NCBI RefSeq assembly: GCF_023015985.1
Contig: NZ_JALKAO010000003.1
Coordinates: 124,001-188,000, forward strand
DNA length: 64,000 nt
Direction of reading: 5' to 3'
Source of the DNA: Marivita sp. S6314
GTDB taxonomy: Bacteria; Pseudomonadota; Alphaproteobacteria; Rhodobacterales; Rhodobacteraceae
The position numbers and the translations under genes are program-made. Position 1 is the first letter of the stretch, and each line of letters opens with the position of its first letter. This document shows, piece after piece, positions 47,023-64,000 of this stretch. The notes under the pieces were generated by a model. The model made no database searches. It had not been told where the DNA came from and was given only the letters and a program-made list of their open reading frames with translations.

Positions 47023-47069
47023 GGTGACATACCTTAGCGTCAGCGCGACATTGGCGAGGAGGCCGGGAA

Positions 47070-48110: not shown

Positions 48111-49572
48111 CGGGCGTGGCCTGAATAGCCTTGGCGATCTCGGCCACACCCGGATCAATCCGCGCCTGCGCAATCGAGCTATAGGCCAGTCGGTAAAAAT
48201 TGGCTGGCGGATTGCCATCAGCAAAAAACGCGGTGCCGGGTTCGATCAGGACACTGGCGTCCCGTAGCCGCGCGGCAAGGTCCTGGCTGTCGACATGATC
48301 GGGCGCCCGCATCCAGAAAGAAGACCCCCCGTTGGTGCCTTTCCCGGCAATCGTCAGCCCGTGCTTGTTGATGGCGTGCTCCATGATGGCGCGGCGGTCG
48401 GCCAGGGCTTTGCCAGTGCGGCGGATCAGGCTGTCATAATGCCCGAGGCTCAGGAAATAGGCGGTGGTGCGCTGCGCGTGGCCGGGGGGATGGCGCAGCA
48501 TTGAGGCACGCAGGGCGCGGACTTCCCGGATAAAGGGGGCAGAGCCGACCAGATATCCAAGCCGCAACCCGGGAAAGAGCGATTTGGAAAAGCTGCCGAC
48601 ATAGATCACCCGGCCATCGGTATCGAGGCTCTTAAGCGCGGGCATGGGCGTTTTGAGATAGGCCATCTCGAATTCGTAATCGTCTTCGACAATCAGCGCG
48701 TCCAATTCCCTGGCACGGGCCAGCAAGGCCTGCCGCCGTTGCAAGGGCATCGTATAGGACGTGGGGCATTGGTGGCTGGGGGTTGTGAAAATGACGTTGG
48801 TGTCGTCCGGGATCAGGTCCGGAGGAAGGCCATCCTTGTCCACCGGCACCGCGAGCGTTTCGCATTGCGCCCGGCCCAGAATTTCGCGCAAGGCCGGGTA
48901 ACAGGGGTCTTCGATCACCGCGACGCATCCCTTGTTGAGCAGGGTTTGCTTGGTCATCCAAAGCGCGTTTTGCGCCCCAAGCGTGATCAGAACCTCGTCG
49001 GCATTGGCCGAAATGCCCCGGCGGGGCAGGGTGTGGCGCAGGATAAATTCGACCAGTTGCGGATCGTCCTGATCGTAGTAATCCTGTGTCATGGCGGAAA
49101 AATCGCGCGCGCCAAGGGCTTGCAGGGCGCACAGACGCCAGTTCGAATGATCGAACAATTGCGGGTCTGTCTGGCCATACAGAAACGGGTAGCGATAGTT
49201 CTGCCAATCCCGGGGCCGTTCGAGTTTCACACCCCCGGTAAATCGACGTCTGAGTGCGCGGGTCCAGTCCACGGCGTCGCGTTTTTCGGGGGGGCTTTCG
49301 AATACGGGGGGTTCGGGGGCGTCCTCGGATACGAAGTAACCCGAACGCCCTTTCGAGGTCAGGTAATCATTGGCCAGAAGTTCGGTATAGGCCAGCGTAA
49401 CGGTGATCCGGCTGACGCCCAGATGGGCGGCGAGTTTGCGGCTGGAGGGAAGTTTTTCGCCCTGTCGGAACCGGCCCGACAGGATGCCTTCGGCCACCAT
49501 CTGCTGAATCCGGGCCTGAAGGGTGCCCTTGGTGTCGGGTTTAAGGAAAAACGTCTCAACGGGGATGGCCAT
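48103..49572 (-). CDS. MocR-type (GntR winged helix plus aminotransferase) regulator
   Basis: The 489-residue protein has a GntR-type winged helix at about 10-80 (GEKLPSSRKLAAHLGVSRIT). It is joined to a fold-type I aminotransferase domain with the PLP Lys in VGSFSKSLFPGLRLGY. MocR proteins such as PdxR, TauR and GabR use pyridoxal phosphate and sometimes an amine to control transporters or B6 synthesis. No pdx or tau gene is adjacent, so the target is unknown; the solute-binding gene upstream on the same strand is a possible target. AGGATT-like spacing is weak at the start. Confidence 0.9.
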   Translation of the reverse strand: MAIPVETFFLKPDTKGTLQARIQQMVAEGILSGRFRQGEKLPSSRKLAAHLGVSRITVTLAYTELLANDYLTSKGRSGYFVSEDAPEPPVFESPPEKRDAVDWTRALRRRFTGGVKLERPRDWQNYRYPFLYGQTDPQLFDHSNWRLCALQALGARDFSAMTQDYYDQDDPQLVEFILRHTLPRRGISANADEVLITLGAQNALWMTKQTLLNKGCVAVIEDPCYPALREILGRAQCETLAVPVDKDGLPPDLIPDDTNVIFTTPSHQCPTSYTMPLQRRQALLARARELDALIVEDDYEFEMAYLKTPMPALKSLDTDGRVIYVGSFSKSLFPGLRLGYLVGSAPFIREVRALRASMLRHPPGHAQRTTAYFLSLGHYDSLIRRTGKALADRRAIMEHAINKHGLTIAGKGTNGGSSFWMRAPDHVDSQDLAARLRDASVLIEPGTAFFADGNPPANFYRLAYSSIAQARIDPGVAEIAKAIQATPVT

Positions 49573-49630
49573 CCCGGAATCGTATGCTGGACTTAACCGG
49601 TTTGCAATCTGGTCTTACGGGGCGGGCCGG

Positions 49631-49676
49631 GGAAGGGCTTTGCAAAGCCCTTCCTGACGCGGTTTTCAAACCGCGT
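49631..49676. repeat. Twin hairpin after the solute-binding protein gene
   Basis: A perfect 24-bp palindrome (49631-49654, core GGGCTTTGCAAAGCCC) is followed after 2 bases by a 20-base hairpin with a 9-bp stem and 2-base centre (49657-49676, ACGCGGTTT / AAACCGCGT). It lies 8 bases past the stop of the minus-strand solute-binding gene. There is no T-run. The geometry matches the twin hairpins at 52994 and 59560, but the sequence differs. A role in transcript ending is inference. Confidence 0.75.
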
Positions 49677-49683
49677 GTGCCCG

Positions 49684-51159
49684 TTACTCGGTCCAGCTCA
49701 CGCCGGTCAGGTCGGTCGCCTGTGTTGGCGCGTTTTCCCACAGACCGGTAATCCGGGCATCCGCGATGGTCGGAAAGGCCAGTTGGAACAGATAGCCGTT
49801 CACATAGTCATCCGAAATCGTCTTCTGTGCCTGCGCCAGCATTTCGGACCGTGTTTCCGGATCGCTGGTGATCTCCAGTGTCTGGATCAACGCCTGAAAA
49901 TCGGGGTTGTCATACTGGAAATAGTAATCCGGGCGGGCATAGATTCCGATGTCGAAAGGTTCGGTGTGGCTGACGATGGTGAGGCCGAAATCCTTGCCGC
50001 GGAACACCTCTTCCAACCATTGCGCCCATTCAAGATTGGTGATCTCGGTCTGGATTCCCACCTCGCGCAATTGCGCCGCGATAATCTCGCCGCCGCGCCG
50101 GGCATAGGAGGGCGGGGGCAGTTTGAGCGTTGTGGTGAACCCGTCTGCCAGCCCGGCCTCGGCCAGAAGCGCCTTGGCCTTTTCGGGGTCATGGGCGGAT
50201 TTGGCCGTGAGGTCGACATAGTCGGGATTGTGCGGCGCGAAATGGGTGCCGATGGGCGTGCCAAGCCCGAACATTGCGCCGTCGATGATCGCCTGCCGGT
50301 CGATGGCATGGGCAATCGCCTGGCGCACCCGGACGTCATCCAGCGGCGGCAGCTTGTTATTCGTGCTCAGGATGGTTTCGCCTTCGGTTGACCCCACCAG
50401 GACCTGAAAGCGCGGGTCGGCTTCGAATTGCGGGATGTTTTCGGGGGCGGGAAAGCCTGCAAAAGCGTCGATGTCCTGCGCCATCATGGCGGCAAAGGCG
50501 GCTGTCGGGTCAGAAATGAATTTGAACGTCGCCGATTCAAGCGCGGGGGCGTCGCCCCAGTACTCCGCGTTGCGGCTGAGTTCGATGCGGTCGCCTTGCA
50601 CCCATTGGTCAAACTTGAACGCGCCGGTGCCGATGGGCTTTTGCTTGATGTCGTCAATGCTTTCGGGGGCCACGATCACCGCGTCCCCCCAGGCCATGTT
50701 GAACAGGAAGTTGCCGTTGGGGGCAGACAGCGTCACGGCGACGGTTTGCGGATCGATGACCTTTACGTCCTCGATTCCGGCAAACAGCGATTTTTGCGCG
50801 TTGGCGCTGTCTTCGGCGCGCGCCCGGTCAAGCGAGAACTTGACGTCCTGTGCATCCAGCGTCGTGCCATCATGGAAGGTGACGCCGTCGCGCAGGGTGA
50901 AGGTGTAGGTCATGCCGTCGTCGCTGATTTCCCAGCGTTCCGCGAGGCCCGGGACCACCGACCCGTCTGACATGAACCGGGTGAGGCCTTCGAAAACGTT
51001 CGAATAGAGCACGCTGTCGATGGCCCCGGCAGCCGCGCTTGTCGGATCGAGATGGGGTGGTTCAAGCTGAAGCGCGATGGTCAGATCGGTTTGTTGTGCC
51101 AAAGCGGGCGTGCACAGCAATACCGCGCCAGCCACAGAACTGAGAAAACGGGCAGTCAT
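49684..51159 (-). CDS. ABC transporter substrate-binding protein, family 5 (peptide/oligo type)
   Basis: The 491-residue protein has a signal peptide (FLSSVAGAVLLCTPALA) and the SBP_bac_5 fold typical of dipeptide, oligopeptide and nickel receptors. Features are ALQLEPPHLDPTSAAAG at the mature N-terminus and VRQAIAHAIDRQAIIDG. AGGAGG precedes the ATG. No permease or ATPase gene is within the window, so it is an orphan here; its partners must lie elsewhere. It may serve peptides or another oligomer. Twin hairpins follow its stop. The divergent panB lies 153 bases away. Confidence 0.92.
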   Translation of the reverse strand: MTARFLSSVAGAVLLCTPALAQQTDLTIALQLEPPHLDPTSAAAGAIDSVLYSNVFEGLTRFMSDGSVVPGLAERWEISDDGMTYTFTLRDGVTFHDGTTLDAQDVKFSLDRARAEDSANAQKSLFAGIEDVKVIDPQTVAVTLSAPNGNFLFNMAWGDAVIVAPESIDDIKQKPIGTGAFKFDQWVQGDRIELSRNAEYWGDAPALESATFKFISDPTAAFAAMMAQDIDAFAGFPAPENIPQFEADPRFQVLVGSTEGETILSTNNKLPPLDDVRVRQAIAHAIDRQAIIDGAMFGLGTPIGTHFAPHNPDYVDLTAKSAHDPEKAKALLAEAGLADGFTTTLKLPPPSYARRGGEIIAAQLREVGIQTEITNLEWAQWLEEVFRGKDFGLTIVSHTEPFDIGIYARPDYYFQYDNPDFQALIQTLEITSDPETRSEMLAQAQKTISDDYVNGYLFQLAFPTIADARITGLWENAPTQATDLTGVSWTE

Positions 51160-51312
51160 AAGTCCCTCCTGTTGATGGGCTGCGCCCAGGTGTTTTCGAG
51201 AGTGTCACGGCGAATCGGCGTGTAATCAAGCACATGCTGCAATTTGCGCAGTGCGGCAGGGGGTCTGGCCTGTTAAGTCCGCTTTGGATCACGACGAGAC
51301 AGGAGCCGCCCG

Positions 51313-52146
51313 ATGAGCGCCACCGCCCGGAAAACAGCGCCTTTGCCCGATGATATTCGCGCCCAGAAAGGCGGGACGCCGATTGTCAGCCTGACCGCCT
51401 ATACCACGCCGATGGCGGAACTGATGGATGCGCATTGCGACTTTGTGCTGGTGGGGGACAGCGTTGGCATGGTGCTGCATGGCCTGCCATCGACACTGGG
51501 TGTCACGATGGAGATGATGATCCTGCACGGACAGGCGGTGAAGCGCGGGTTGCGACAGGCGATGATGGTGATGGACATGCCGTTCGGGTCCTACGAGGAA
51601 AGCCCCGAGCAGGCGTTCCGCAATGCGGCGCGGCTGATGGCGGAAACCGGCGCGGGGGCGGTCAAGCTTGAAGGTGGCGTGGGCATGGCACAGACCATCG
51701 CGTTTCTGGTTGCGCGGGGCATTCCGGTGATGGCCCATATCGGGCTGACGCCGCAATCCATCAACACGCTGGGGGGCTACAAGGTGCAAGGACGCGGTGC
51801 CGCGCGGGCGCAGCTCTTGGCCGATGCAGAGGCGGTTGCAGAGGCCGGCGCGTTTGCCGTGGTGCTGGAGAAGGTGCCCGAAAGCCTGGCGGACGAGATC
51901 ACCAAGGCCGTTCCAATCCCGACGATTGGCATCGGGGCGTCCGCGGGATGCGATGGGCAGGTTCTGGTGGTCGACGACATGCTGGGCCTGTTTACCAAAT
52001 TCAAACCGAAATTCGTTAAACGGTACGCCAGCCTGGGTGAACAGGCGGAAGCTGCTGTCGCGGCCTATGCGGCCGAGGTCCGATCGCGCGCCTTTCCGGC
52101 ACCCGAACATGTCTTTGCCGATACGGCACCGGAGTCCAAACCATGA
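51313..52146 (+). CDS. panB: 3-methyl-2-oxobutanoate hydroxymethyltransferase PanB
   Basis: PanB makes ketopantoate from alpha-ketoisovalerate and methylenetetrahydrofolate, the first committed step of pantothenate synthesis. The 277-residue protein has the family motifs [33 protein letters not shown], the metal-binding [10 protein letters not shown] and KLEGG. AGGAG stands before the ATG. Its stop overlaps the panC start by 4 bases. The 153 bases upstream, shared with the divergent solute-binding gene, hold no promoter I can place with confidence. Confidence 0.98.
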
Positions 52147-52985
52147 TCGCGCCGATTGTGCGGGACAAGGCGGCGTTGCGCGCGATGGTCACGCCGTGGA
52201 AACGTGCAGGTGAGGTGGTTGGTGTGGTGCCAACCATGGGGGCCTTGCATGACGGCCATCTGAGCCTTGTCGCAGCGGCCAAGGCGGCATGTGACCGGGT
52301 GATTGTCACGATTTTCGTGAACCCGAAACAATTCAACAACCCCGAGGATCTGGCAAATTACCCCCGCACCGAAGAAGACGATGCGCGCAAGCTGGAGCGG
52401 TTCGGGGTGGACGCGATCTGGGTGCCGGATGGCGATCAGATGTATCCGGAGGGCTTTTCTACCAATGTCTCGGTCTCCGGGCTGACCGATTGTCTGTGTG
52501 GTGCAACGCGGCCCGGGCATTTCGATGGTGTCGCCACCGTGGTCAGCAAGTTGTTCTTGCAGACCAGCGCGGATCAGGCGTTTTTCGGCGAAAAGGACTA
52601 TCAGCAGTTGCAGGTGGTCACGCGGTTGGCGGCCGATCTGGACATTCCGGTCACCGTTGTGGGCTGCCCGACCATTCGCGAAGAAGACGGGCTGGCGATG
52701 TCGTCTCGGAACCTGCTTCTGTCGGACCGGGCACGGGTCTATGCGCCGGTGCTGAACGAGGTGATGGAAGAGATGGCAGAGGCTTTGCGCGGCGGGGCGG
52801 AAATTGCGGCGCTGATGCCGAAAGCCCTGAAGCGGTTGGAGGTGGCGGGGTTCACCAGCGTTGATTATCTGGAACTGCGCCGGGCGGATGATCTGCAACT
52901 GCTGGACCGGGCGGACGTACCGGGGCGGTTGTTTGCCGCTGCGTGGCTGGCCGGAGTGCGGTTGATCGACAATATCGCGGTCTGA
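52143..52985 (+). CDS. panC: Pantothenate synthetase PanC
   Basis: PanC joins pantoate and beta-alanine using ATP. The 280-residue protein has [16 protein letters not shown] with the HIGH-type signature, [22 protein letters not shown] and the SSRNLLLS motif (KMSKS-like). The ATG overlaps the panB stop in an ATGA, so both are translated together. A twin hairpin follows the stop codon by 8 bases. Confidence 0.98.
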
Positions 52986-52993
52986 GCCGGGGA

Positions 52994-53036
52994 GATGATG
53001 CGTCGACGCATCATCGTGTTTCCGTTCACGGAAACA
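52994..53036. repeat. Twin-hairpin repeat, copy 1 (panC / M20 gene junction)
   Basis: A perfect 22-bp palindrome (52994-53015, core TGATGCGTCGACGCATCA) is followed after 1 base by a 20-base hairpin, TGTTTCCGT-TC-ACGGAAACA (53017-53036). It fills the gap between the convergent stops of panC (52985) and the M20 gene (53049). An inverted second copy with compensatory changes lies at 59560-59602. Likely a bidirectional transcript end or repeat element. Confidence 0.88.
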
Positions 53037-53048
53037 GATGCGAAAGGG

Positions 53049-54323
53049 TCAGGGCAACAGCAGGGTTTGCAGGCTGCGCGCCATGACTTTCGCGCTGTCG
53101 AGCATGTCGGTGATGCCGACCCATTCATCGGGTTTATGCGCCAGTTCCAGCACACCGGGACCGTAGGCGATGCAGTTCTTCAGCTTGCCGATACGGTCGA
53201 TGTGTTTCTGGTCATAGCTGCCCGGTGAGGCGACATAAGACGGGTCTTTGCCCAGCACGTCCCGGATGGCGTCGTGCACGGTGGTGACCACGGGGGCATC
53301 CTTGTCGGTCATGGAGGGGATCACGCGGTTGAGTTCGCGAATTTCGTAGTCGAAGTTCTCGCGGCGGGATTTGAGATCTTCCAGCAGGTCGATGACCTCG
53401 GTGCGCACCGCCTCGATCGGTTCTTCCATTAAAAAGCGGCGGTCGATCACGATGCGGCAACTATCGGGCACGCAATGGGCGGGCAGGCCGGTGTAGTCGG
53501 CGGCTTGTTCGGGTTGGCCGCCATGGACCGAATTGATGTTCATCGTGGATTGCCGCGCGCCTTCGGGAACCACGGGCATATCGGTGCGGCGGGAGGCCAT
53601 GGCCGGGAACAGCGTTTCCTCGAACGCGTGTAGAACGGCGCCCATATGGCGGACGGCGCAATCACCCAGAAACGGCATGGAGCCATGGGCGATTTCACCC
53701 TTGGTTTCGATCTCGGCCCACCAGCCGCCGCGATGGCCGAGGCAGATGCGGTCTTTGTTCAGCGGTTCGGGGATGATCACGTGCTGCACGCGCGTGGGAT
53801 CAAACCAGCCCTTTTCCGCCAGATAGGCGACGCCGCCATAACCGCCGGACTCTTCATCCGCGGTGCCGCTGATTTCGATTGCGCCGGCATAGTCGGGATG
53901 TTCGGCAATAAAGGCTTCGGCGGCGATGATGGAGGCGGCAAGGCCGCCCTTCATATCGCAGGCCCCGCGGCCATAGATCTTGTCGCCTTCCACCGCGCCA
54001 CCAAAGGGGTCACGGGTCCAGCCGTGTCCAACCTCGACCACATCGGTGTGAGAGTTGAAGTGGACGCAGTCGCCCGACCGTGTGCCCTCGTGTCGGGCGA
54101 TCAGGTTCCAGCGCGGGTATTTTTCGCTATCGCCGGGAGCCCCTTCGGCGCGGACCCAGGTGGTTTCGAATCCTGATCCGCTCAGGCGTGCGGCAAGGGT
54201 GTCGCAGATGGCCTCGTAATGCTGTCCCGGCGGGTTGAGCGTTGGAATCGCGATCAGCCCCTGGGTCAGCGCGATCAGGTCTTCGCGCGCGTCGTCGATG
54301 CGTTGAAAGAGCGTGTCGCCCAT
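53049..54323 (-). CDS. M20 family ArgE/DapE-type deacylase
   Basis: The 424-residue zinc peptidase-family enzyme shows FNSHTDVVEVGHGWTRDPFG with the first metal His and Asp. GRGACDMKGG supplies a bridging Asp, and TADEESGGYGGV the catalytic Glu. Members deacylate acetylornithine (ArgE) or succinyl-diaminopimelate (DapE), among other N-acyl amino acids. The window has argJ, which removes the need for ArgE in the cyclic pathway, so another substrate is quite possible. GAGGTG precedes the ATG. It is co-directional with DUF2125 upstream, 54 bases away. Confidence 0.88.
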   Translation of the reverse strand: MGDTLFQRIDDAREDLIALTQGLIAIPTLNPPGQHYEAICDTLAARLSGSGFETTWVRAEGAPGDSEKYPRWNLIARHEGTRSGDCVHFNSHTDVVEVGHGWTRDPFGGAVEGDKIYGRGACDMKGGLAASIIAAEAFIAEHPDYAGAIEISGTADEESGGYGGVAYLAEKGWFDPTRVQHVIIPEPLNKDRICLGHRGGWWAEIETKGEIAHGSMPFLGDCAVRHMGAVLHAFEETLFPAMASRRTDMPVVPEGARQSTMNINSVHGGQPEQAADYTGLPAHCVPDSCRIVIDRRFLMEEPIEAVRTEVIDLLEDLKSRRENFDYEIRELNRVIPSMTDKDAPVVTTVHDAIRDVLGKDPSYVASPGSYDQKHIDRIGKLKNCIAYGPGVLELAHKPDEWVGITDMLDSAKVMARSLQTLLLP

Positions 54324-54377
54324 GGGTCACCTCGTTGCTGCCCGCACTGTTGCGGGAGGCGTGGCGCTTTGCAAGCG

Positions 54378-55355
54378 TCAGTCGAACTGCAACGGGGGTA
54401 AGGTGCCAATCGGCAAGGGACCAAGAAGCACAGTGCCGTCTTTCAGCCCCAGCGTGATGTCCAGCGCATCTCTGGATCCGCCAAAGGTGGCCAGCATGGA
54501 GAGCAGGTCAATCAAACCGTCGGTCAGCCCCGGTGGCAGATCGCCATTGGCGCGCGCCGCGTTCAGGCTTTCGCGCCAATTGTCCGCTTCGAGAGACACT
54601 TCGCCCGTGGCGCGGCCTTGCGGGTCGAACGCGGCGTCGCCGGTGACGCGGAAGGTCAGCGCACCGTAGGTGATCTCGGACCGGGGGACGGTGATCTGCG
54701 TTGGGCGCGGCGTGTCCGTTGTTCCGCTGTCCAGCGTGATCGGGGCGTTCAGATCCACGGTCATCTCGCTGCGCAGGGAGGCGAGGGAGTCGGGCGCAAG
54801 TGTGCCGGAGATGCGCGGATTGGACACCGCGATCCCGTCCACAAAGAGCGCGATGCGGTAGCTGGCGGGCGCGGGTTCGATCTTTTCCAGAGCGGCGGTC
54901 AGACCCGCGAGCGCGACGGTCTGTTCCGGACCTTCAAGGTTCAGCGTGGTGGCTTCGACATTGGCGCGGATCACGTTGTTTGACGCGTGGATCACGCTGG
55001 CGCGCAGCCCGTCAGAGGAAATGGCCATCGGGCCATCCGGTGTCGTGACGGTTTGCGTATCGGGCCACGCGACAATCACATGGCCCCGTTTATACGTCAG
55101 GCCGAGGATCTGGAAAAACGGTGCGGACCAACCGAACTGTCCGTCGGGAGATGTCAGGCTGGGGTCGGTCAATGTAAGATCCGTGCGGCTGGGAAAGCCC
55201 TGAACGGAAATATCGGCATAGCTGGCCTGCCACCCCGCGTCGCGCTGGTCGGCGAACCATGCCTCAACATCCCGCTGCAGCGCGTTGGCGGCGTAGAACC
55301 ACCAGCCCGCATATCCAAGCGTGGCCACAACAATCACGATGAAAAGTCGTTTCAT
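54378..55355 (-). CDS. DUF2125 protein, membrane-anchored
   Basis: The 325-residue protein has an N-terminal anchor or signal (RLFIVIVVATLGYAGWWFYA). The DUF2125 body is rich in beta strands (QGFPSRTDLTLTDPSLTS and SEITYGALTFRVTGDAAFD are visible). DUF2125 is common in alphaproteobacteria with no known role; the strand pattern recalls the AsmA/TamB-like lipid-transfer folds, but that is inference. The downstream M20 gene is in the same orientation. It is divergent from the gamma-glutamylcyclotransferase with 67 bases between starts. Confidence 0.85.
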   Translation of the reverse strand: MKRLFIVIVVATLGYAGWWFYAANALQRDVEAWFADQRDAGWQASYADISVQGFPSRTDLTLTDPSLTSPDGQFGWSAPFFQILGLTYKRGHVIVAWPDTQTVTTPDGPMAISSDGLRASVIHASNNVIRANVEATTLNLEGPEQTVALAGLTAALEKIEPAPASYRIALFVDGIAVSNPRISGTLAPDSLASLRSEMTVDLNAPITLDSGTTDTPRPTQITVPRSEITYGALTFRVTGDAAFDPQGRATGEVSLEADNWRESLNAARANGDLPPGLTDGLIDLLSMLATFGGSRDALDITLGLKDGTVLLGPLPIGTLPPLQFD

Positions 55356-55422
55356 GCGTGCATCCCCTTTTGTCCGCCGCGCGATTGGTGTTTATCGCGC
55401 ACATGGCAGCAGGACCAGCAAC

Positions 55423-55953
55423 ATGACGCTTTGGGTGTTTGGATACGGATCGCTTTTGTGGAACCCCGGATTTGATCCGGTGGAAACCGCACATGCACGG
55501 CTTGAAAACTATGCGCGCAGCTTTTGCATGCGGTCCATTCATCATCGCGGCACGGATGCGGACCCCGGTCTCGTGCTGGCGCTGGATGAACATCCCGGCA
55601 GTGTGTGCGACGGGTTGGCGATGCAGATGCACGAGGCCGAGTATGATGCAACGATGGCTTATCTGCGCGAACGGGAGCTGGTGTCGTCGGCCTATCTGGA
55701 AAAGACGCTGCCGTTGAAATTCGCCGATGGGCGCGAGGTCACGGCCGTGACCTATGTCATCGATCCCGACCACGTGCAGTATTGCGGATCGCTGGATCTG
55801 GAAGAACAGGCCCAGATTATCGCCAGAGCCGTGGGCGGGCGGGGTCCGAACAGCGAATACCTGTTTAACACCGCATCCCATCTGGCCGAACTGGGGATTC
55901 CGGATGCCGAACTTGAGTGGTTGTGTGACCGCGTCCGCGCCTTGATTGCTTAA
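55423..55953 (+). CDS. Gamma-glutamylcyclotransferase, ChaC-like
   Basis: The 176-residue enzyme has the fold motif VFGYGSLLWNPGF at residue 4 and the catalytic Glu in LRERELVSSAYLEKTL. ChaC-type enzymes degrade glutathione to 5-oxoproline and Cys-Gly. The ATG at 55423 has AGGA upstream; a longer reading from 55321 would overlap the divergent DUF2125 gene. The MotA-like gene follows 74 bases downstream. Glutathione work fits the gloB gene later in the window but the two are not linked. Confidence 0.92.
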   Translation: MTLWVFGYGSLLWNPGFDPVETAHARLENYARSFCMRSIHHRGTDADPGLVLALDEHPGSVCDGLAMQMHEAEYDATMAYLRERELVSSAYLEKTLPLKFADGREVTAVTYVIDPDHVQYCGSLDLEEQAQIIARAVGGRGPNSEYLFNTASHLAELGIPDAELEWLCDRVRALIA

Positions 55954-56027
55954 CGGCTTGGCGATTGGCGGCGAAGCGCCTAGAGTTGCCCGCGAAGAAT
56001 AAGAAAACCGCGTCAGGAACTGTCCGA

Positions 56028-57218
56028 ATGGATCAGCCGGACATCGAGGCCGAGCCACAATTTTCCCAACCTGTCCGTCAGGTTCTGATGATGCTCCTTG
56101 TTTTGGGGCTGACCGGCTTTGGCGGGTTTCTGGCGCTGCCTCGTGTGTTGCCGGTGTTCGAGGCGAACCCCTATCTTAACGGGTTTATCCTGTTTGTGTT
56201 CGGGATCGGCGTGGTCGCCTGTTTCTGGCAGGTCTGGCAGTTGATCCAATCGGTGCGCTGGATCGAAACCTTTGCCCGCGAACGCGAAGCCGGTGTGCAG
56301 ACCAAGGCGCCGCTGTTGCTGGCCCCATTGGCAACGCTGTTGCGGTCGCGGGGCCGGCGGATGCAGATCAATACGGCGTCGACCCGGTCCATTCTGGATT
56401 CCGTGGCCACCCGGATCGACGAGGCGCGTGAAATCACGCGGTACATTGTCAATCTTCTGATCTTTCTGGGCCTGTTGGGAACGTTTTACGGTCTGGCGAC
56501 AACGGTTCCTGCATTGGTGGACACCATTCGCGGCCTTGCGCCCGAAGATGGCGAAAGCGGCGTTGAGGTCTTCGCGCGGCTGATGAACGGGTTGGACAGC
56601 CAGTTGTCCGGTATGGGCGTAGCCTTTGCCTCATCGCTTTTGGGGCTGGCGGGATCGCTGGTTGTGGGGCTGCTCGAACTTTTTGCCGGGCATGGGCAAA
56701 ACCGGTTTTACCGCGAATTGGAAGAGTGGCTGAGTTCGATCACGAAGCTTGGGTTTTCCAGCGGCGAGGGCGACGGCACCGGCGAAATGAGCGCGACCGG
56801 CGCGGTGCTGGACCAGATGATCGAGCAGATGGACACGATGCAGCTTTTGTTTGCGCGATCCGAAGAGGGGCGCAGCGAGGTTGAGAACCGATTGGGCCAA
56901 CTGAGCGATGCCCTGGAGCGGATGACCGAACGAATGGAGGCCTCTGCCCCCACCGCATCGGCTTTTGCGCGGATCGCGGAAGGGCAGGAGCGACTGATCG
57001 AAGTCTTGGACCACAAATCCGAAAACGAAGGTCTGGATGCCGAAAGCCGGATGCGGTTGCGGTCCATTGACGTGCAGATGTTGCGTATCCTTGAAGAGAT
57101 CGCGGCGGGCCGTCAGGAAACGATGGCCGAACTGCGCACCGATCTGTCGACCATTGGTCGCGCGCTGGACCGGTTGGCACGCACCGCCGGACGCCCGACA
57201 GACAAGGGCGAGGGCTAA
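56028..57218 (+). CDS. MotA/TolQ/ExbB-type proton-channel family protein
   Basis: The 396-residue protein has four hydrophobic segments (about 18-38, 50-72, 143-165 and 200-225). The MotA_ExbB signature falls over the last two: NLLIFLGLLGTFYGLATTVP and GMGVAFASSLLGLAGSLVVG. Residues 230-396 are predicted helical and cytoplasmic, with coiled-coil character. The start at 56028 (MDQPDIEAEPQ) is chosen; a longer one at 55965 is possible. The MotB-like partner begins 3 bases after its stop. The pair should form a proton-driven stator, but its target is unknown. No flagellar or tol genes are nearby. Confidence 0.87.
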   Translation: MDQPDIEAEPQFSQPVRQVLMMLLVLGLTGFGGFLALPRVLPVFEANPYLNGFILFVFGIGVVACFWQVWQLIQSVRWIETFAREREAGVQTKAPLLLAPLATLLRSRGRRMQINTASTRSILDSVATRIDEAREITRYIVNLLIFLGLLGTFYGLATTVPALVDTIRGLAPEDGESGVEVFARLMNGLDSQLSGMGVAFASSLLGLAGSLVVGLLELFAGHGQNRFYRELEEWLSSITKLGFSSGEGDGTGEMSATGAVLDQMIEQMDTMQLLFARSEEGRSEVENRLGQLSDALERMTERMEASAPTASAFARIAEGQERLIEVLDHKSENEGLDAESRMRLRSIDVQMLRILEEIAAGRQETMAELRTDLSTIGRALDRLARTAGRPTDKGEG

Positions 57219-57221
57219 GCC

Positions 57222-59546
57222 ATGGCCCTGTCCCGGCGCACGGGAACCCGGTTTCAGGCCTCGATCTGGCCCGGCTTTGTGGATGCGATGACCGGGCTCT
57301 TGCTGGTTCTGATGTTCGTGCTGACCATCTTTATGGTGGTGCAGGCCGTGCTGCGGGACACGATCACCGGACAGGAAAACGAACTTAACACGTTGTCGTC
57401 AGAGATTGCCGAACTGGCGGCCGCGCTGGGGTTGGAGCAGCAGCGCACCACCGCTCTGAACAACGAACTTGGTGCGTTGACCGCGACGATGGATGACACG
57501 CGCACACGGTTGACCGAACAGGAAGCGATTATCGCAAGCCTGTCGGCCACACGAGACCGTCAGGCCGAAGCCCTGACCGCCGCAGATGCGCGGATCGCGT
57601 CCTTTGAAGAGCAGGTCGCCGGGTTGCTGGCTGATCGGGATGCCGCCCGAACACAGATCACCGACCTGACGGCAGAGCGCGCCGCTTTGGCGGCGGCGCA
57701 GGAACAGTTGTTGTCCGAGCAGGAGGCGCTGAACCTTGCGCTGGCAATAGCCCGCAGCGAGATTGACGAACAGACCGAAGCGGCGCGCCTGGCGGCGGCG
57801 CAACGCGAGGCGCTGGATGCCCTGGTCGCCGATTTGCGGGCGCGGAACGCAGAGACGACAGAGCAGATCGGGGTATTGACCGGACAGGTCGCAGAGTTGG
57901 AGCAGGCGCTGAGCGACGAAGAGGTGGCCAAACTGGCCGAGGCCGAAGCGGCGGCGGCGTTGCGGGCGCGATTGGAAAACGCCGATGCGGAATTGACCGC
58001 GATGACACTGGCGCTCGAACAGCAAAGGGCCGAAGCGGAAGAAACGCTCACGCTTTTGGCGGCGGCGCGGGATGCAGAAGATGATCTCAACGCCCGTCTG
58101 GCGGCGGCGTTGCTGGAAGGGCAGGACACCGCGTCCGAGTTGCAATCCCGGCTGGATGCGCAGGCGTCGCAGATCGCTGCGCTGGAAACCGACCTTGAGG
58201 CAGCGGCGGTGGATCAGTCGACGCTGACCTCCCTGCAGTCGCAGCTGTCGCAAGCCCTGATCCGGGTGTCGGAAGCCAATGCGCTGGAGGCCCGTCTGGA
58301 AGAGTTGCGGGCAGAAAACGCCGCGCTGAGTGCCGATTTGACGGCCTCCGAGGACGAAACGGCGCAGACTGCCGCGACGGTGGATGCGCTGCGCCGCGCC
58401 TTGGCCCAAGCGCAGGCCGAGGCAGCAGAGCGTACCGCGCAGGAGCGGACGCTGGAGCAACAACTGGCGGCGGCGCTGGCGCAGCAATCTGTCCTGTCCG
58501 CAACGCTGGCTGCGGCGGAAAACAACCTTGCCTCGACCGGTGCCGAACTGGACGACACGCAATCGCAGCTTGAAGAGACAACATCAGCCCTGACGGAGCT
58601 AAGCAGCCGTGCCGCGACGGCCGAAGCGGCGTTGCAGGATGTGCGCGATCAGCTTGTTGCGGCGTTGGCGGCCAAAGTGGCAGCGGATGCGGCTTTGGAG
58701 ACCCGGCTGAGCGAAAGCGAACAGCGTCAGATCCTGTTGGAACAGGCGCGTGACCGGCTGAATGCGGAAACCGAGCGGGCCACAGAGGCGCAGCGTCAGA
58801 CCGAATTGCTCAACCAGCAGGTGGGCGCGCTGCGCCGTCAATTGTCGACGCTGCAGGGGTTGCTGGACGAGGCCGAAGCCAAGGACATCGAAGCACAGAT
58901 TCAGCTGCAGAGCCTTGGCAGCGAATTGAACACCGCGCTGGCCCGGGTTGCCGCGGAAGAACGCCGTCGGCGTCAGCTTGAGGAAGCCGAACGCATCCGG
59001 TTGGAAGAAGAGCGGGTGCGGCTGGAAGAGGAAAAACGCCGGTTGGCACAGGAAAGCGAACGGCTTGCGGGCGAAAACCAGGATCTTGAGCAATACCGCT
59101 CCGAGTTCTTTGGCCGCTTGCGCGAGGTGCTGGGCAACCGTGAGGGCGTTCGGATCGAAGGCGACCGGTTCGTGTTCTCGTCAGAGGTCCTGTTTGCCCC
59201 CGGTCAGGCCGGATTGTCCGTCGCCGGTCGCGCGCAGATTGCCAATGTGGCAGGGATCCTGCGCGAGGTGGCCGCCGATATCCCGGACGAAATCAACTGG
59301 GTGATCCGGGTGGATGGTCATACCGATAACGTGCCATTGTCGGGGCAGGGTGAGTTCTTTGACAATTGGGAACTGAGCCAGGCGCGTGCGCTGTCTGTTG
59401 TGCGGTATATGATCAATTTTCTGGGCATCCCGCCTGAACGGTTGGCGGCCAACGGGTTTGGTCAATACCAGCCTGTGAACACAGACGACACACCCGAAGC
59501 GCGGGCGCAGAACCGGCGGATCGAGTTGAAACTGACGGAACAGTAA
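57222..59546 (+). CDS. MotB/OmpA-type protein with very long coiled coil
   Basis: The 774-residue protein begins with a MotB-like segment, PGFVDAMTGLLLVLMFVL, whose Asp 21 is placed like the proton-binding Asp of MotB. About 580 residues of Ala/Glu/Gln/Leu-rich heptad-like sequence follow (about 50-627). A C-terminal OmpA-like peptidoglycan-binding domain (628-774) contains RVDGHTDNVPLSG and NRRIELKL. It pairs with the MotA-like gene 3 bases upstream. The coil is far longer than in MotB (normally under 100 residues). Twin hairpins follow. Function is unknown; wall-anchored stator is the best reading. Confidence 0.87.
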   Translation: MALSRRTGTRFQASIWPGFVDAMTGLLLVLMFVLTIFMVVQAVLRDTITGQENELNTLSSEIAELAAALGLEQQRTTALNNELGALTATMDDTRTRLTEQEAIIASLSATRDRQAEALTAADARIASFEEQVAGLLADRDAARTQITDLTAERAALAAAQEQLLSEQEALNLALAIARSEIDEQTEAARLAAAQREALDALVADLRARNAETTEQIGVLTGQVAELEQALSDEEVAKLAEAEAAAALRARLENADAELTAMTLALEQQRAEAEETLTLLAAARDAEDDLNARLAAALLEGQDTASELQSRLDAQASQIAALETDLEAAAVDQSTLTSLQSQLSQALIRVSEANALEARLEELRAENAALSADLTASEDETAQTAATVDALRRALAQAQAEAAERTAQERTLEQQLAAALAQQSVLSATLAAAENNLASTGAELDDTQSQLEETTSALTELSSRAATAEAALQDVRDQLVAALAAKVAADAALETRLSESEQRQILLEQARDRLNAETERATEAQRQTELLNQQVGALRRQLSTLQGLLDEAEAKDIEAQIQLQSLGSELNTALARVAAEERRRRQLEEAERIRLEEERVRLEEEKRRLAQESERLAGENQDLEQYRSEFFGRLREVLGNREGVRIEGDRFVFSSEVLFAPGQAGLSVAGRAQIANVAGILREVAADIPDEINWVIRVDGHTDNVPLSGQGEFFDNWELSQARALSVVRYMINFLGIPPERLAANGFGQYQPVNTDDTPEARAQNRRIELKLTEQ

Positions 59547-59559
59547 AGCGGCGCGGGGG

Positions 59560-59602
59560 CGTTTCGGTGGACCGAAACGTCTTGATGCGTCGACGCATCA
59601 AG
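59560..59602. repeat. Twin-hairpin repeat, copy 2 (MotB-like / M23 junction)
   Basis: A 20-base hairpin, CGTTTCGGT-GG-ACCGAAACG (59560-59579), is followed after 1 base by a perfect 22-bp palindrome (59581-59602, core TGATGCGTCGACGCATCA). It lies between the convergent stops at 59546 and 59622. It is the inverted counterpart of the copy at 52994-53036: same core, same spacing, but changed base pairs at four paired positions. Confidence 0.88.
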
Positions 59603-59621
59603 CGCCCGTGGAGATGACGGT

Positions 59622-60575
59622 TTAGTTGACCGTAACATCCGCGTGTCGCACCGCGAGGATCGTTTCGCCGCGGATCAGGGTGACGGTGCCGCGATATGCG
59701 CCGGTCGGCCAGCCGATGCTTGGTGGACGCCGTCCGAAGGCGCGGAACAACCGGGCCTGGTCTGCATCAAGCCGCGCGGTATGGTCAAAGACCAACCCGT
59801 CGGGGCCGGTCATCTGCAGTTCTATCACGTCGCCTGAATTGCCGTGAAAGGCGTAGCCATAGAGCACCATGGCCTCGTTCGGAGACAGCGTCGCGCGCCG
59901 GGCGACGCCGGATTGTACGTCTTCCAGATCCGGCACGCTGCTCGACACGGCTGCCGTAAACAAGCCGGCATCGGTGTAGGTGGGCGTGTCGCGCCACAGC
60001 GTTTCAAAGGGTTCGCCGCAGGCGTTGTTCTGGTCCGGTGCAAAGGGATCAACCACATCGTTGCCTTGCGTGATCGTCAGATGCAGGTGTGGGTAATTGG
60101 TGCGCCCGCTGAGGCCGACCTCACCCAGAACCTGCCCGGCGAGGACACGCTGTCCCGGCGAGACAAGGACAGATCCCAGTTTCAGATGACAATAGACAGA
60201 TTGGTATCCGTTGCCGTGATCAATGCGCACCGCATTGCCGCAATCCTGCCCCTGCAGATCGGTGCCCGGGATGTAGGGCTGATCCGGGCGCATGTCGCGG
60301 GTGGCCTGAACGCGGCCATCGGCAGCGGCGATGACGCGGACACCCTGGTCCATCTGTTCGAAACTGAGAAGGGCGAAATCCGTCCCGCTGTGCCCGTCGC
60401 GGGATTTGAGGCCGCAGCGATAGTCTGACATGCCGTCGGAGGGATCGGTGTCAGGGTAGTCCTCGATCACGCAGGTTTCGCCAAGCGTACAATCCAGCGG
60501 CATGCCGAGAAACGGCGCGTCCGCCACAATTGGTGTGGCGGACGCGAAGAAGATACATGTCAGTGTCCGGATCAA
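59622..60575 (-). CDS. M23 (LytM-type) peptidase family protein, secreted
   Basis: The 317-residue protein has a signal peptide (RTLTCIFFASATPIVADA) and a LytM domain. Its zinc ligands are visible as the His and Asp in DGHSGTDFALL and the HLHL motif (YPHLHLTI). Catalytically active M23 enzymes cut peptidoglycan cross-bridges. All expected ligands are present, so it may be active. The start is a TTG at 60575 that overlaps the clpA stop by 4 bases, so translation probably depends on clpA. It is convergent with the MotB-like gene. Confidence 0.88.
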   Translation of the reverse strand: MIRTLTCIFFASATPIVADAPFLGMPLDCTLGETCVIEDYPDTDPSDGMSDYRCGLKSRDGHSGTDFALLSFEQMDQGVRVIAAADGRVQATRDMRPDQPYIPGTDLQGQDCGNAVRIDHGNGYQSVYCHLKLGSVLVSPGQRVLAGQVLGEVGLSGRTNYPHLHLTITQGNDVVDPFAPDQNNACGEPFETLWRDTPTYTDAGLFTAAVSSSVPDLEDVQSGVARRATLSPNEAMVLYGYAFHGNSGDVIELQMTGPDGLVFDHTARLDADQARLFRAFGRRPPSIGWPTGAYRGTVTLIRGETILAVRHADVTVN

Positions 60576-62896
60576 TCCGCCGTCAGCAAGGGGGGTTTCT
60601 TGCTGGACAGGCGTGGATTGTCGGGACCTTCGGTGTCAAGCACCAGCTTGCCATCCTTGACCGACACCTTGACCACACCGCCTTTGGCGAGCTTCCCGAA
60701 GAGCAGTTCTTCGGCAAGCGGCTTCTTGATCTCTTCCTGAATGACGCGGCCCAAGGGGCGCGCGCCCATCTTGTCGTCATATCCCTTTTCCGCCAGCCAT
60801 TCGGCGGCGGGTTTGGTCAGTTCGATGGTCACGTTGCGATCCATGAGCTGTGCTTCAAGCTGCAGCACGAACTTTTCGACCACCTGCAGGATGACCGACT
60901 TCGGCAGCGGCGCAAAGGATATGACCGCGTCCAGACGGTTGCGGAATTCCGGCGTGAACGTGCGCTCGATGGCCGCCGTATCCTCGCCTTCGCGACGGTC
61001 GCGTCCGAACCCGATGGCCGCTTTGGCCTGTTCCGCCGCACCCGCGTTTGACGTCATGATCAGGATCACGTTGCGGAAGCTGACGGTGCGCCCGTTGTGA
61101 TCTGTCAAAGAGCCGTGGTCCATCACCTGCAGCAGGATGTTGTAGACATCCGGATGCGCCTTTTCGATTTCGTCCAGCAGCAACACGCAATGCGGATGCT
61201 GGTCGACGCCATCGGTCAGCTGGCCACCCTGGTCAAACCCGACATAGCCGGGAGGCGCGCCGATGAGGCGGCTGACCGCGTGCTTTTCCATATATTCGGA
61301 CATGTCAAAGCGCAGCAGTTCCACACCCAGCGTATCCGCCAGTTGCTTGGCCACTTCGGTTTTGCCGACACCGGTCGGACCTGCGAAGAGGTAGTTGCCA
61401 ATGGGCTTCTCCGGTTCGCGCAGACCTGCACGCGCCAGTTTGATGGCCGAGGACAGCGCGTCGATGGCGTTGTCCTGCCCAAAAACCACCCGCTTGAGCG
61501 ACGCTTCGAGATCCTTGAGAACCTCTGCGTCGTCCTTGCTGACATTCTTTGGCGGGATGCGGGCGATCTTGGCGACAACCGCCTCGATCTCTTTCGCGCC
61601 GAGTGTTTTGCGACGCTTGGATTCCGCTACCAGATGCTGTGCCGCACCCGCCTCGTCGATCACGTCGATGGCTTTGTCGGGCAGCTTGCGGTCATTGATA
61701 TAGCGTGCCGACAGCTCCACCGCTGTTTTGATCGCATCCGTGGTGTATTTGACGCTGTGATGTTCCTCGAAATAGGGCTTGAGGCCTTTGAGGATCTTGA
61801 TCGCGTCATCCACGGTCGGTTCGTTCACGTCAATCTTCTGGAACCGACGGCTGAGCGCGCGGTCCTTTTCGAAATGCTGACGGAATTCCTTGTAGGTGGT
61901 CGATCCCATGGTACGCAGCTTGCCGCCCTGAAGCGCGGGCTTCAGCAGGTTGGATGCGTCCATTGCACCGCCGGATGTGGCACCGGCACCGATGACTGTG
62001 TGAATCTCGTCGATGAACAGAACCGCGTCTTCATGTTCTTCCAGTTCGGTCACAACCGCCTTAAGGCGTTCCTCAAAGTCGCCACGATACCGTGTGCCGG
62101 CAAGCAATGCGCCCATGTCGAGCGAGTAGATCGTGGTATTGGCCAGAACCGCAGGGGTTTCACCGGACACGATCTTGCGCGCAAGACCTTCGGCGATCGC
62201 GGTTTTGCCAACGCCGGGGTCGCCCACCAGAAGCGGGTTGTTCTTGCGGCGGCGGCACAGCACCTGGATGCAGCGTTCGACTTCGGAATCGCGGCCGATG
62301 AGCGGATCAATGTCACCCTCACGCGACTTGGCGTTCAGATCTACACAGTATTTTGCCAGGGCGGATTCTTTCTGTTCGCCCTGCGGTTCCGCGGCCTGCA
62401 CCTCTTCCTCGTTTTCGGTGGCACCCGTGACCGGGCGGCTTTCGCCGTAGGCCGGGTTTTTGGCAACACCATGTGCAATGAAGTTGACCGCGTCGTAGCG
62501 GGTCATGTCCTGATCTTGCAGGAAATAGGCCGCGTTGCTTTCGCGTTCCGCAAAGATCGCAACCAGCACATTGGCCCCGGTTACTTCGGACCGGCCAGAG
62601 CTTTGGACATGGATCGCGGCGCGCTGGATCACGCGCTGGAAGGCGGCGGTTGGCACCGCTTCGGATCCTTCGATGTCTGTCACGAGGTTAGACAGATCGT
62701 CATCGATGTAGTCCACCAATGTTGTGCGAAGCTCTTCCGTATCGACGGAACAGGCCTTCATGACGCGCACCGCATCGGGTTCGTCAATCAGCGCCAGCAA
62801 CAGGTGTTCCAGCGTCGCAAACTCGTGTGATCGGGAGTTGGCCAGCGCCAACGCCGAGTGAATCGCCTGCTCAAGGGTATTCGAAAATGAAGGCAC
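60572..62896 (-). CDS. clpA: ATP-dependent Clp protease ATPase subunit ClpA
   Basis: ClpA unfolds substrates for the ClpP protease. The 774-residue protein starts at a GTG (62896, MPSFSNTLEQAIHSALALA) with AGGAG 9 bases upstream; a longer ATG reading is not family-like. In order: an N domain (1-150), AAA1 with Walker A GDPGVGKTAIAEGLA and Walker B VLFIDEIHTVIGAG, and AAA2 with GPTGVGKTEVAKQLA. It ends near SSKKPPLLTAD. The size and absence of a ClpB-style middle coil separate it from ClpB. The M23 gene is coupled at its end. clpS is not seen in the window. Confidence 0.97.
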   Translation of the reverse strand: MPSFSNTLEQAIHSALALANSRSHEFATLEHLLLALIDEPDAVRVMKACSVDTEELRTTLVDYIDDDLSNLVTDIEGSEAVPTAAFQRVIQRAAIHVQSSGRSEVTGANVLVAIFAERESNAAYFLQDQDMTRYDAVNFIAHGVAKNPAYGESRPVTGATENEEEVQAAEPQGEQKESALAKYCVDLNAKSREGDIDPLIGRDSEVERCIQVLCRRRKNNPLLVGDPGVGKTAIAEGLARKIVSGETPAVLANTTIYSLDMGALLAGTRYRGDFEERLKAVVTELEEHEDAVLFIDEIHTVIGAGATSGGAMDASNLLKPALQGGKLRTMGSTTYKEFRQHFEKDRALSRRFQKIDVNEPTVDDAIKILKGLKPYFEEHHSVKYTTDAIKTAVELSARYINDRKLPDKAIDVIDEAGAAQHLVAESKRRKTLGAKEIEAVVAKIARIPPKNVSKDDAEVLKDLEASLKRVVFGQDNAIDALSSAIKLARAGLREPEKPIGNYLFAGPTGVGKTEVAKQLADTLGVELLRFDMSEYMEKHAVSRLIGAPPGYVGFDQGGQLTDGVDQHPHCVLLLDEIEKAHPDVYNILLQVMDHGSLTDHNGRTVSFRNVILIMTSNAGAAEQAKAAIGFGRDRREGEDTAAIERTFTPEFRNRLDAVISFAPLPKSVILQVVEKFVLQLEAQLMDRNVTIELTKPAAEWLAEKGYDDKMGARPLGRVIQEEIKKPLAEELLFGKLAKGGVVKVSVKDGKLVLDTEGPDNPRLSSKKPPLLTAD

Positions 62897-62951
62897 GAGG
62901 GAGTGCTCCTTCTTTCTGCATTGTTCCGCAGGGTACGAAACAACTGTCATC

Positions 62952-62981
62952 TTATTATTAAAGTGTGGTTGTTACCGGCAA
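62952..62981 (-). promoter_or_regulatory. Tentative clpA promoter with inverted repeat
   Basis: On the minus strand, TTGCCG (62976-62981), an 18-base spacer and TAATAA (62952-62957) make a moderate sigma-70 match; a second TAATAA at 62955-62960 has 15-base spacing. The -35 sits inside an inverted repeat, GGCAAAG (62977-62983) and CTTTGCC (62997-63003). The rest of the clpA-gloB gap is AT-rich with no other call. Confidence 0.4.
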
Positions 62982-63052
62982 AGCTTCAAGTTTTTTCTTT
63001 GCCTTGACAGGTCACAACCGCGGGATTGGTGGCACCAGAGACTCAATTTGGG

Positions 63053-63820
63053 TCAGAAGTGGTCTTTCCGGGTCCGGATTTCAGCAAAAACATCAACCGG
63101 ATCTTCACCGATCATGTCGAGTTGCGCTTGAATTTCAGGGTCAGCGGCGCGCAGGAACGGGTTGGTTGCCAGTTCTTCGGCCAAAGTGCTGGGGACAGTG
63201 GGCTCGTTCCTGTCCCGTGCAGAATTTATGCGCGCGATGCGGTCTTTCAAGTCCGCGTTGTCCGGATCAATGGTGATGGCGAATTTTGCATTTGCCTGCG
63301 TGTACTCGTGTCCGGAGCAAATCACCGTGTCCGGATCGAGGGCTGCAAGCTTTTGCAGACTGTCCCACATTTGCGGCGCGGTGCCTTCAAAAAGCCGTCC
63401 GCATCCCAGCGCCATCAAGCTGTCTGCGGTGAAAGCATAGCCCGATCCGGGCAGCGAAAAGGCAATATGTCCGTTTGTGTGCCCCGAGACGTCCAGAACG
63501 GTCACCTCTTCGCCTCCGAACATAAAGACATCGCCGTCCGCGACCTCGCGGTTCAGTGGCGGCAGGCGATGAATGTCTGCGGTTGCGCCGGTGACCTTGG
63601 CATCATGCGCCGCCAAAAGACCGTCAACGCCGCCGATGTGGTCGTGATGGTGGTGGGTCAGCCAGATCTCGGTCAAAGACCATCCGCGTTTCGACAGTTC
63701 GGCAAGAATGGGGTCTGCCTCGGGCACATCGATGCAGGCAGTTGCGCCGCTTTTGGCGTCGTGCAGAAGATAGGTGTAATTGTCGGAAAGTGCAGGGATC
63801 GTGACAAGTTCGAGAGGCAT
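63053..63820 (-). CDS. gloB: Hydroxyacylglutathione hydrolase (glyoxalase II)
   Basis: Glyoxalase II hydrolyses S-lactoylglutathione to lactate and glutathione, completing methylglyoxal detoxification. The 255-residue metallo-beta-lactamase-fold enzyme shows LTHHHHDHIGG for the binuclear metal site, and CIDVPEADPI and VSGHTNGHIAF supply further ligands. The ATG at 63820 gives MPLELVTIPALSDNYTYLL, the usual start; a longer in-frame reading runs into the divergent gene. It is divergent from the partial methyltransferase. Confidence 0.96.
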   Translation of the reverse strand: MPLELVTIPALSDNYTYLLHDAKSGATACIDVPEADPILAELSKRGWSLTEIWLTHHHHDHIGGVDGLLAAHDAKVTGATADIHRLPPLNREVADGDVFMFGGEEVTVLDVSGHTNGHIAFSLPGSGYAFTADSLMALGCGRLFEGTAPQMWDSLQKLAALDPDTVICSGHEYTQANAKFAITIDPDNADLKDRIARINSARDRNEPTVPSTLAEELATNPFLRAADPEIQAQLDMIGEDPVDVFAEIRTRKDHF

Positions 63821-63896
63821 GGCGTTTTCAACTTTCGCGGTTACAGTTGCGGCGAGCGCGTTTTGCTGACCTTGGCCGAACAGAACGGAGGCCGCA

Positions 63897-64000
63897 ATGC
63901 ACCTTGATGTGCAGACCTTGCACAACTTCTATTACCGAAGCGCCATCGGTCGTGTGGCGCAGCGCGTGGTTCGGGATCAGGTGCAGGCGTTCTGGCCGGA
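63897..64000 (+). CDS. Methyltransferase-type protein, N-terminus only (cut by window end)
   Basis: The first 34 codons read [20 protein letters not shown] and continue [14 protein letters not shown] before the window ends. GGAGG stands 6 bases from the ATG. To my recollection, a SAM-dependent methyltransferase with this N-terminus lies divergent from gloB in many Rhodobacteraceae, and the sequence fits. The catalytic domain is not in the window, so function rests on context. Confidence 0.65.

Follow-up and report, generated by a model that had tools for sequence, protein, structure and literature searches.

Twin palindromes directly after gene ends form a dispersed family resembling repetitive extragenic palindromes in Marivita

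Introduction

Several kinds of short hairpin element near gene ends have been described in bacteria. Repetitive extragenic palindromes (REPs) with a GTAG tag, and the REPINs, are mobilised by RAYTs (PMC3733652, PMC3116915). What defines the CGTC-tagged REPs of alpha-proteobacteria is a CGTC-type tag, unpaired, at one end together with a CCA-like tail; they have stems of 8 to 9 bp and loops of 4 to 5 nt, form dimers, are without a dedicated transposase and lie near 3' ends, between convergent genes and between genes of the same direction (PMC3733652). Frequent G-T pairing is also cited for REPs (PMC3733652). Among terminators, V- and X-shaped clusters of tandem hairpins near stop codons have been inferred to act without a U-tract (PMC8355165), compensatory evolution is described for intrinsic terminators (PMC5381666), and the bidirectional terminators of Zymomonas mobilis, for which convergent sites are over-represented, carry U-tracts and A-tracts (PMC7566282). 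Here we describe a 42-base element made of two abutting palindromes, the twin, which occurs in two inverted copies in a 64,000-nucleotide stretch of Marivita sp. S6314 DNA (contig NZ_JALKAO010000003.1, positions 124,001 to 188,000; below, the window) and in dozens of copies elsewhere, and we compare it with these systems.

Results

Copy 1, on the plus strand, consists of a palindrome, P1 (GATGATGCGTCGACGCATCATC), a 1-base gap and a hairpin, P2 (TGTTTCCGT-TC-ACGGAAACA). Copy 2 has the opposite orientation, with P2 followed by the 1-base gap and P1 (for coordinates, see Table 1). P1 is 22 bp and P2 is 20 bp in both copies. When the copies are aligned in the same orientation, they differ at four stem positions (the outer two pairs of P1, and the outer pair and pair 7 of P2), and each difference is a change of both partners of the pair. 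Both copies lie between convergent stop codons, with gene ends at 52985 and 53049 around copy 1 and at 59546 and 59622 around copy 2. An 18-mer shared by the copies, allowing up to 3 mismatches, is found at 2 places in the window, compared with 0.05 expected in shuffles. An earlier reading of the letters alone (the sequence-only reading) had reported the inverted copies, the 1-base gap, the four compensated differences, the convergent stop codons and the lack of a T-run; all of these hold, and a U-tract is missing on both sides. The second hairpin, which it had given as 9 bp, is present as a palindrome, but the predicted RNA hairpins have stems of 8 to 9 bp closed by 4-nt loops. For copy 1, both hairpins are predicted to fold on either strand, at -23.9 and -23.8 kcal/mol.

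The twins are a dispersed, REP-like family with dozens of copies directly after gene ends. In this genome (G000, 3.77 Mb), an 18-base pattern with up to 2 mismatches is found at 10 places, 9 of which contain the exact 16-bp core, with none for the reversed-pattern control in either case, and the core with up to 3 mismatches is found at 63 places, compared with 4 for the control. All 10 places of the 18-base pattern are flanked on one side by a second palindrome, and the P2 consensus with up to 1 mismatch is found at 23 places (control, 0). R1, a covariance model based on 70 twins, matches at least 24 twins in this genome, and four more are contained in an alignment of twins, A2 (L006, L155, L157 and L163; L numbers denote loci). 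This genome has at least 28 twins, a density of about 1 per 100 to 150 kb. The exact core is present in 15 of the 17 genomes of the genus, with 2 to 34 copies in each. The twin pattern was found in at least 115 stretches of named genomes, and the matches listed are from Marivita or from unclassified Alphaproteobacteria or Rhodobacteraceae bins. Among 247 other genomes, sampled from the family at one per genus, R1 matches 7 at an E value of ≤0.001; each of these has 1 to 5 matches, several of which are weak or are one place counted on both strands. There was no match to the twin pattern in viral contigs, no match to the copy 1 stretch in plasmids at an E value of ≤1, no Rfam match above the gathering score in the entire window and, in an open-licence literature search, no description of these elements or of the core string.

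Each twin is composed of two abutting hairpins with stems of 8 to 9 bp and loops of 4 nt, whose centres are 21 or 22 bp apart. In a structure-only scan of 978 kb (the window and 115 fetched loci), a spacing of 21 was found 81 times and a spacing of 22 was found 58 times, compared with 3 for 19, 1 for 20, 0 for 23 and at most 4 for each larger spacing up to 59. From 188 family-like twins, 159 with a spacing of 21 to 22 and a score of ≥26 were retained, which left 152 elements without duplicates; the dropped twins include weak look-alikes and pairs formed by P2 and a third, GC-rich hairpin (see below). The inner stems are near-fixed (P1, GATGCG-TCGA-CGCATC; P2, TTTCCG-TNNA-CGGAAA), and this conservation and that of the P1 centre are inflated because loci were fetched by the exact P1 core plus TTTCCG. 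The fetching left the outer pairs free and allowed start-to-start spacings of 18 to 24. Counted outward from each centre, pairs 3 to 10 are complementary in 88 to 100% of the 152 elements. Pairs 9 and 10, which occur as all four pair types, are paired in 98% and 90% of P1 stems and in 98% and 88% of P2 stems, compared with 28 to 48% in shuffled elements. From pair 12 outward, pairing is at the background level, and the stems stop about 10 to 11 positions from the centre. In A2, 99.0% of 1050 cells are paired, and 110 cells are changed on both sides of the pair, compared with 25.6 in shuffles and 2 to 33 when the partners are slid.

The unpaired flank 5' of P1 is G-rich across the family. An outer helix closing the twin, which was suggested by the fold of copy 2, was rejected, since the mean best stem was 3.64, compared with 3.74 for shuffled flank pairs. 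Kissing of the P1 and P2 loops in the transcript predicts more TCAA than TTGA loops in P2 when P2 is transcribed first. This is not supported: the P2 loop is TTGA in 7 and TCAA in 3 of the 31 tandem elements with P2 first, and TTGA in 39 and TCAA in 5 of the other 69. Behind many twins (L005, ~1540 to 1580; L310, L312, L316 and others) stand a further, GC-rich hairpin of the GGGGGCnnnnGCCCCC type and then a motif like CCGAGGTATTT, which a motif scan detected no more than 150 nt from 13 of the 100 tandem elements and 12 of the 44 convergent ones. This resembles a repeat or terminator of a separate kind.

The position of the 152 elements was determined relative to genes called by a codon-usage script written for this analysis. 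There are 44 between convergent genes, 100 between tandem genes and 2 between divergent genes; a further one is inside a called gene, and five are at the edges of loci. In the same loci, the background comprises 110 convergent, 353 tandem and 125 divergent gaps of ≥40 bp, so that convergent sites are in excess (P = 0.003) and divergent sites are strongly depleted (P = 4e-11). Three-quarters of the tandem elements (76 of 100) have their first base no more than 27 nt from a stop codon. In 69 of the 100 tandem elements P1 precedes P2 (P = 0.0002), but when one-kind ortholog groups are counted this order holds in 23 of 36 (P = 0.13), which is a weak bias. The expected concentration of copies at 3' ends is upheld, but convergent ends as its main location are not supported, since convergent sites are the minority (44 versus 100 tandem). 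The genome scan and the alignment bear out several further points of the sequence-only reading: the element is a REP-like repeat, it has further copies, its placement is not random, and covariation, first noticed between two copies, is far above that of shuffles.

By flank similarity, the 152 elements fall into 67 groups, 27 of which have at least two members; some groups contain several copies of one local array. Across the 142 elements of 30 ortholog groups, some of them decayed, both partners of a pair have changed in 64 states, and the mismatches are 26 G-T, 19 A-C and 29 other. At four sites in this genome other than those of copies 1 and 2, R1 at an E value of ≤0.01 finds the twin kept in 13 of 15 (with one further species lacking the left flank), 11 of 16, 15 of 17 and 14 of 17 species, and at two of these sites some species have it as tandem arrays. 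At the copy 1 site, 4 of 10 species with the flanking gene have an R1 twin and two more have apparent remnants, as judged by eye; the P1 stem varies there (GATCCTGCG in L209 versus GATGATGCG here). At the copy 2 site, the only species of 16 with an R1 twin is this one. In the other 15, the flanking genes end 0 to 3 nt apart, as read from the sequences, compared with 75 bp here; G010, in which only a distant match to the copy 2 flanking protein was found, was left out of this comparison. Among the loci compared, no source of the copy 2 insert emerged; its best match outside its own site is in L137, with 90% identity over 50 of 75 bases. Because the twin is kept at four sites, is present in part of the species at the copy 1 site and occurs in a single species at the copy 2 site, we conclude from these comparisons that copies persist, decay and are sometimes gained.

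Local twin arrays with a period of ~67 to 115 bp, including flanks, were seen in L328, L329, L337 and L116:4700-4950, at two orthologous sites and elsewhere. At site S6 (L326, L328, L331 and others), most species have ~450 extra bases between the flanking genes, a candidate small EF-hand-like gene by eye, and the twin remains beside the stop codon of the right-hand gene. The two genus genomes without the exact P1 core, G003 and G008, keep diverged twins at this site (L325 and L338).

Twins were also found outside the genus. Loci of G028, G207 and G249, which were drawn in by R1 matches, have the same plan with different stems. In G044, two twins lie in a random 20-kb piece, and a genome search for CGGAAACC-ATAT-GGTTTCCG with up to 3 mismatches gave 33 places (control, 0). 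A second palindrome is found at exactly 24 bp in 13 of 15 fetched G044 copies, and 14 of the 15 are convergent or tandem (8 convergent, 6 tandem and 1 inside a gene) with the window-trained gene caller; a G044-trained caller gave 5 inside, 4 convergent, 4 tandem and 2 divergent for the same loci, and we prefer the former split because, in our judgement, the latter run called long spurious frames. The centre is spelled TCGA in Marivita P1, G028 and G207 and ATAT or GCGC in G044, where two twins have GCGC in both centres in place of ATAT, and the centre spacing differs between genera (21 to 22, 24 and 23 to 25). Among random 20-kb pieces from 12 genera and a 160-kb sample of G029, clear twins occurred in G044 only, and 38 pieces of >5 kb from 32 further genera (575 kb) contained a single twin, which had weak stems and lay inside a gene, the chance level; since this genome has ~1 twin per 100 to 150 kb, such pieces have low power for the prevalence of such families. 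In G207, rows of 4 to 5 successive palindromes 19 to 26 bp apart, mostly with TCGA centres, are present at L041:3230-3330 and L251:18880-18970, and their sequences are other than that of the Marivita twin.

In the loose sense of a short palindrome with many dispersed intergenic copies, the twins are REP-like, since only 1 of 152 lies inside a called gene. The nearest described kind is the CGTC-tagged superfamily (PMC3733652): the twins share its stem and loop sizes (8 to 9 bp and 4 to 5 nt), its dimers, its 3'-end placement and its lack of a dedicated transposase. They differ from it in having neither the tag nor the CCA-like tail, in combining two unlike palindromes whose distance is constant and in showing no G-U preference. 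Of the CGTC-type tags (CGTC, TGTC and CCTC), CGTC occurs in 4 and 5 of the 152 flanks, and the commonest form is GACG, in 11 of 152 5' flanks. Like GTAG REPs and REPINs (PMC3733652, PMC3116915), the twins are dispersed extragenic palindromes with paired units; unlike them, they have no GTAG tag (GTAG in 2 of 152 5' flanks and 0 of 152 3' flanks; CTAC in 1 and 1). The link to a RAYT-type transposase that had been envisaged failed for this genome, in which PF01797 has no match; matches were found in 3 of 17 genus genomes and in 5 of 14 control genomes. The V- and X-shaped terminators (PMC8355165) likewise have adjoining hairpins directly after stop codons and need no U-tract, but are a structural class, whereas the twins, as putative terminators, share a specific core and a strict spacing across a genus. 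Paired changes are common to the twins and the compensatory terminator hairpins (PMC5381666), and over-representation at convergent sites is common to the twins and the Z. mobilis terminators, from which the twins differ in lacking U-tracts and A-tracts (PMC7566282).

The genes around both copies are ordinary genes (Table 1). Elsewhere in the window, at 49631 to 49676, there is a further pair of perfect palindromes of unrelated sequence with centres 24 bp apart, directly downstream of a minus-strand gene whose stop codon is at 49684.

Table 1. Twin elements and neighbouring genes, by position in the window
Feature	Position	Strand	Basis
Copy 1 P1 (GATGATGCG-TCGA-CGCATCATC)	52994..53015	+	sequence reading; perfect palindrome; R1 covariance model match
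Copy 1 P2 (TGTTTCCG-TTCA-CGGAAACA)	53017..53036	+	sequence reading; P2 consensus scan; predicted fold
G-rich flank 5' of P1 (weaker family feature)	52989..52993	+	G 70% and 72% at two flank positions, n = 152
Copy 2 P1 (CTTGATGCG-TCGA-CGCATCAAG)	59581..59602	-	sequence reading; perfect palindrome; R1 match
Copy 2 P2 (CGTTTCGG-TCCA-CCGAAACG)	59560..59579	-	sequence reading; palindrome
75-bp intergenic stretch containing copy 2	59547..59621	.	orthologous loci; R1 match in 1/16 species
Pantoate-beta-alanine ligase, gene left of copy 1	52143..52985	+	Pfam PF02569
M20 peptidase family, gene right of copy 1	53049..54323	-	Pfam PF01546
OmpA-domain protein, gene left of copy 2	57222..59546	+	Pfam PF00691
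M23 peptidase family, gene right of copy 2	59622..60575	-	Pfam PF01551

Discussion

The reading that we favour, with a rough probability of 45%, is that the twin is a REP-like hairpin pair that acts at transcript 3' ends in either orientation. The stem length, the four-base loops, the position after stop codons and the near absence from divergent gaps fit such an action, and the covariation of the outer pairs, the predicted folding of both strands, the retention of the twin at orthologous 3' ends and the separate G044 family of the same plan speak for it. Two abutting perfect palindromes would give the same stable hairpin pair from either transcribed strand, and an element after stop codons could act on transcripts coming from both sides. 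The hairpin pair would then define or protect the mRNA 3' end, either as a block on 3'-to-5' trimming after termination or as an aid to the stopping of RNA polymerase without a U-tract; where a U-tract is lacking, the hairpins might terminate transcription on their own or might shield ends that Rho has made, and clusters of hairpins that lack U-tracts are a precedent as inferred terminators (PMC8355165). We infer this action on RNA, and the role of the twins in termination or protection, from their form and placement.

Several results weigh against an action on transcripts. There is no U-tract on either side of the elements: in the 30 nt after the element, in the tandem and convergent sets, T is 3 to 41% per position and forms no run. 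A terminator scan of window positions 45000 to 64000 listed 18 sites, which is the number expected by chance (19.4 in shuffles), and neither copy is among them. The near-fixed inner 16 bp exceed what a terminator needs. On the transcribed strand of 130 tandem elements, the imperfect pairs are 26 G-U, 29 A-C and 39 other of 2080 cells (P = 0.79), and in 65 convergent elements they are 16 G-U, 11 A-C and 14 other of 1040 cells. A tolerance of G-U pairs, considered as a sign of RNA in a first set (10 G-U versus 5 A-C), was gone in the larger set (26 versus 29). Without a G-U preference, there is no sign of selection on a one-strand RNA. The asymmetry of the P2 loop tracks the orientation of the element and not the direction of transcription. 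Finally, neither copy can be essential, since 15 of 16 species lack copy 2 and 6 of 10 lack copy 1.

A two-strand or DNA-level role accounts for the strand symmetry of the imperfect pairs and for a loop asymmetry that is bound to the element rather than to the transcript. A chromosome-binding protein or a topoisomerase could recognise the palindrome pair, either in the form of a hairpin or cruciform or as two dyads that are in phase at a distance of about two helical turns; E. coli REPs are described as gyrase targets (PMC3733652). Placement would then arise because gene 3' ends tolerate the element or because supercoils collect there. The near-fixed 16-bp dyad core is in keeping with this explanation, as is the spacing, which is 21 or 22 bp in Marivita and 24 bp in 13 of 15 G044 copies. 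However, a double-strand binder would not need outer pairs that may be of any base and are yet complementary, the spacing varies by genus (21 to 22, 24 and 23 to 25), and the partner protein is so far only hypothetical, and we regard a DNA-level element as possible but rather unlikely.

Imperfect palindromes can be corrected by template switching during replication. The twin might therefore be a mostly neutral or selfish REP-like repeat whose palindromes are kept perfect by such correction and whose 3'-end placement reflects the intolerance of promoters and genes. This would agree with the gain of copy 2 where 15 other species have 0 to 3 nt, the tandem arrays at two sites, the decayed copies, the genus-specific spelling and the symmetry of mismatches between strands. 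We nevertheless consider it improbable: at 4 of the 6 sites examined, the twin has been retained by 11 to 15 species out of 15 to 17, fixed inner pairs with outer pairs that change in concert would not be expected from correction alone, and this genome has no RAYT. That the copies are ordinary Rho-independent terminators, alike by chance, is very hard to credit. Their position after stop codons and their stems of 8 to 9 bp with 4-nt loops would suit such terminators, but the U-tract is missing, the list of terminator-like sites includes neither copy, and a 16-bp core is common to 15 of the 17 genus genomes.

If the reading as a hairpin pair acting at transcript 3' ends is extended beyond Marivita, the twins might represent a Rhodobacteraceae class, tagless and (in this genome) RAYT-less, whose geometry, two abutting hairpins of 8 to 9 bp with matching 4-nt centres at gene ends, recurs in several genera with genus-specific spelling. 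A co-evolving factor that sets 3' ends would then recognise the hairpin pair from both directions. We put this forward as a doubtful, tentative proposal.

U-tract terminators are not evident at twin sites. If the twins are active at 3' ends, they would provide natural replicates by the dozen, in which close relatives differ in whether a site is filled or empty, as for copy 2, and the effect of one added hairpin pair after a gene would be directly measurable in a GC-rich alphaproteobacterium. Since this REP-like family has no known tags and, in this genome, no RAYT, the origin of its new copies becomes a testable question.

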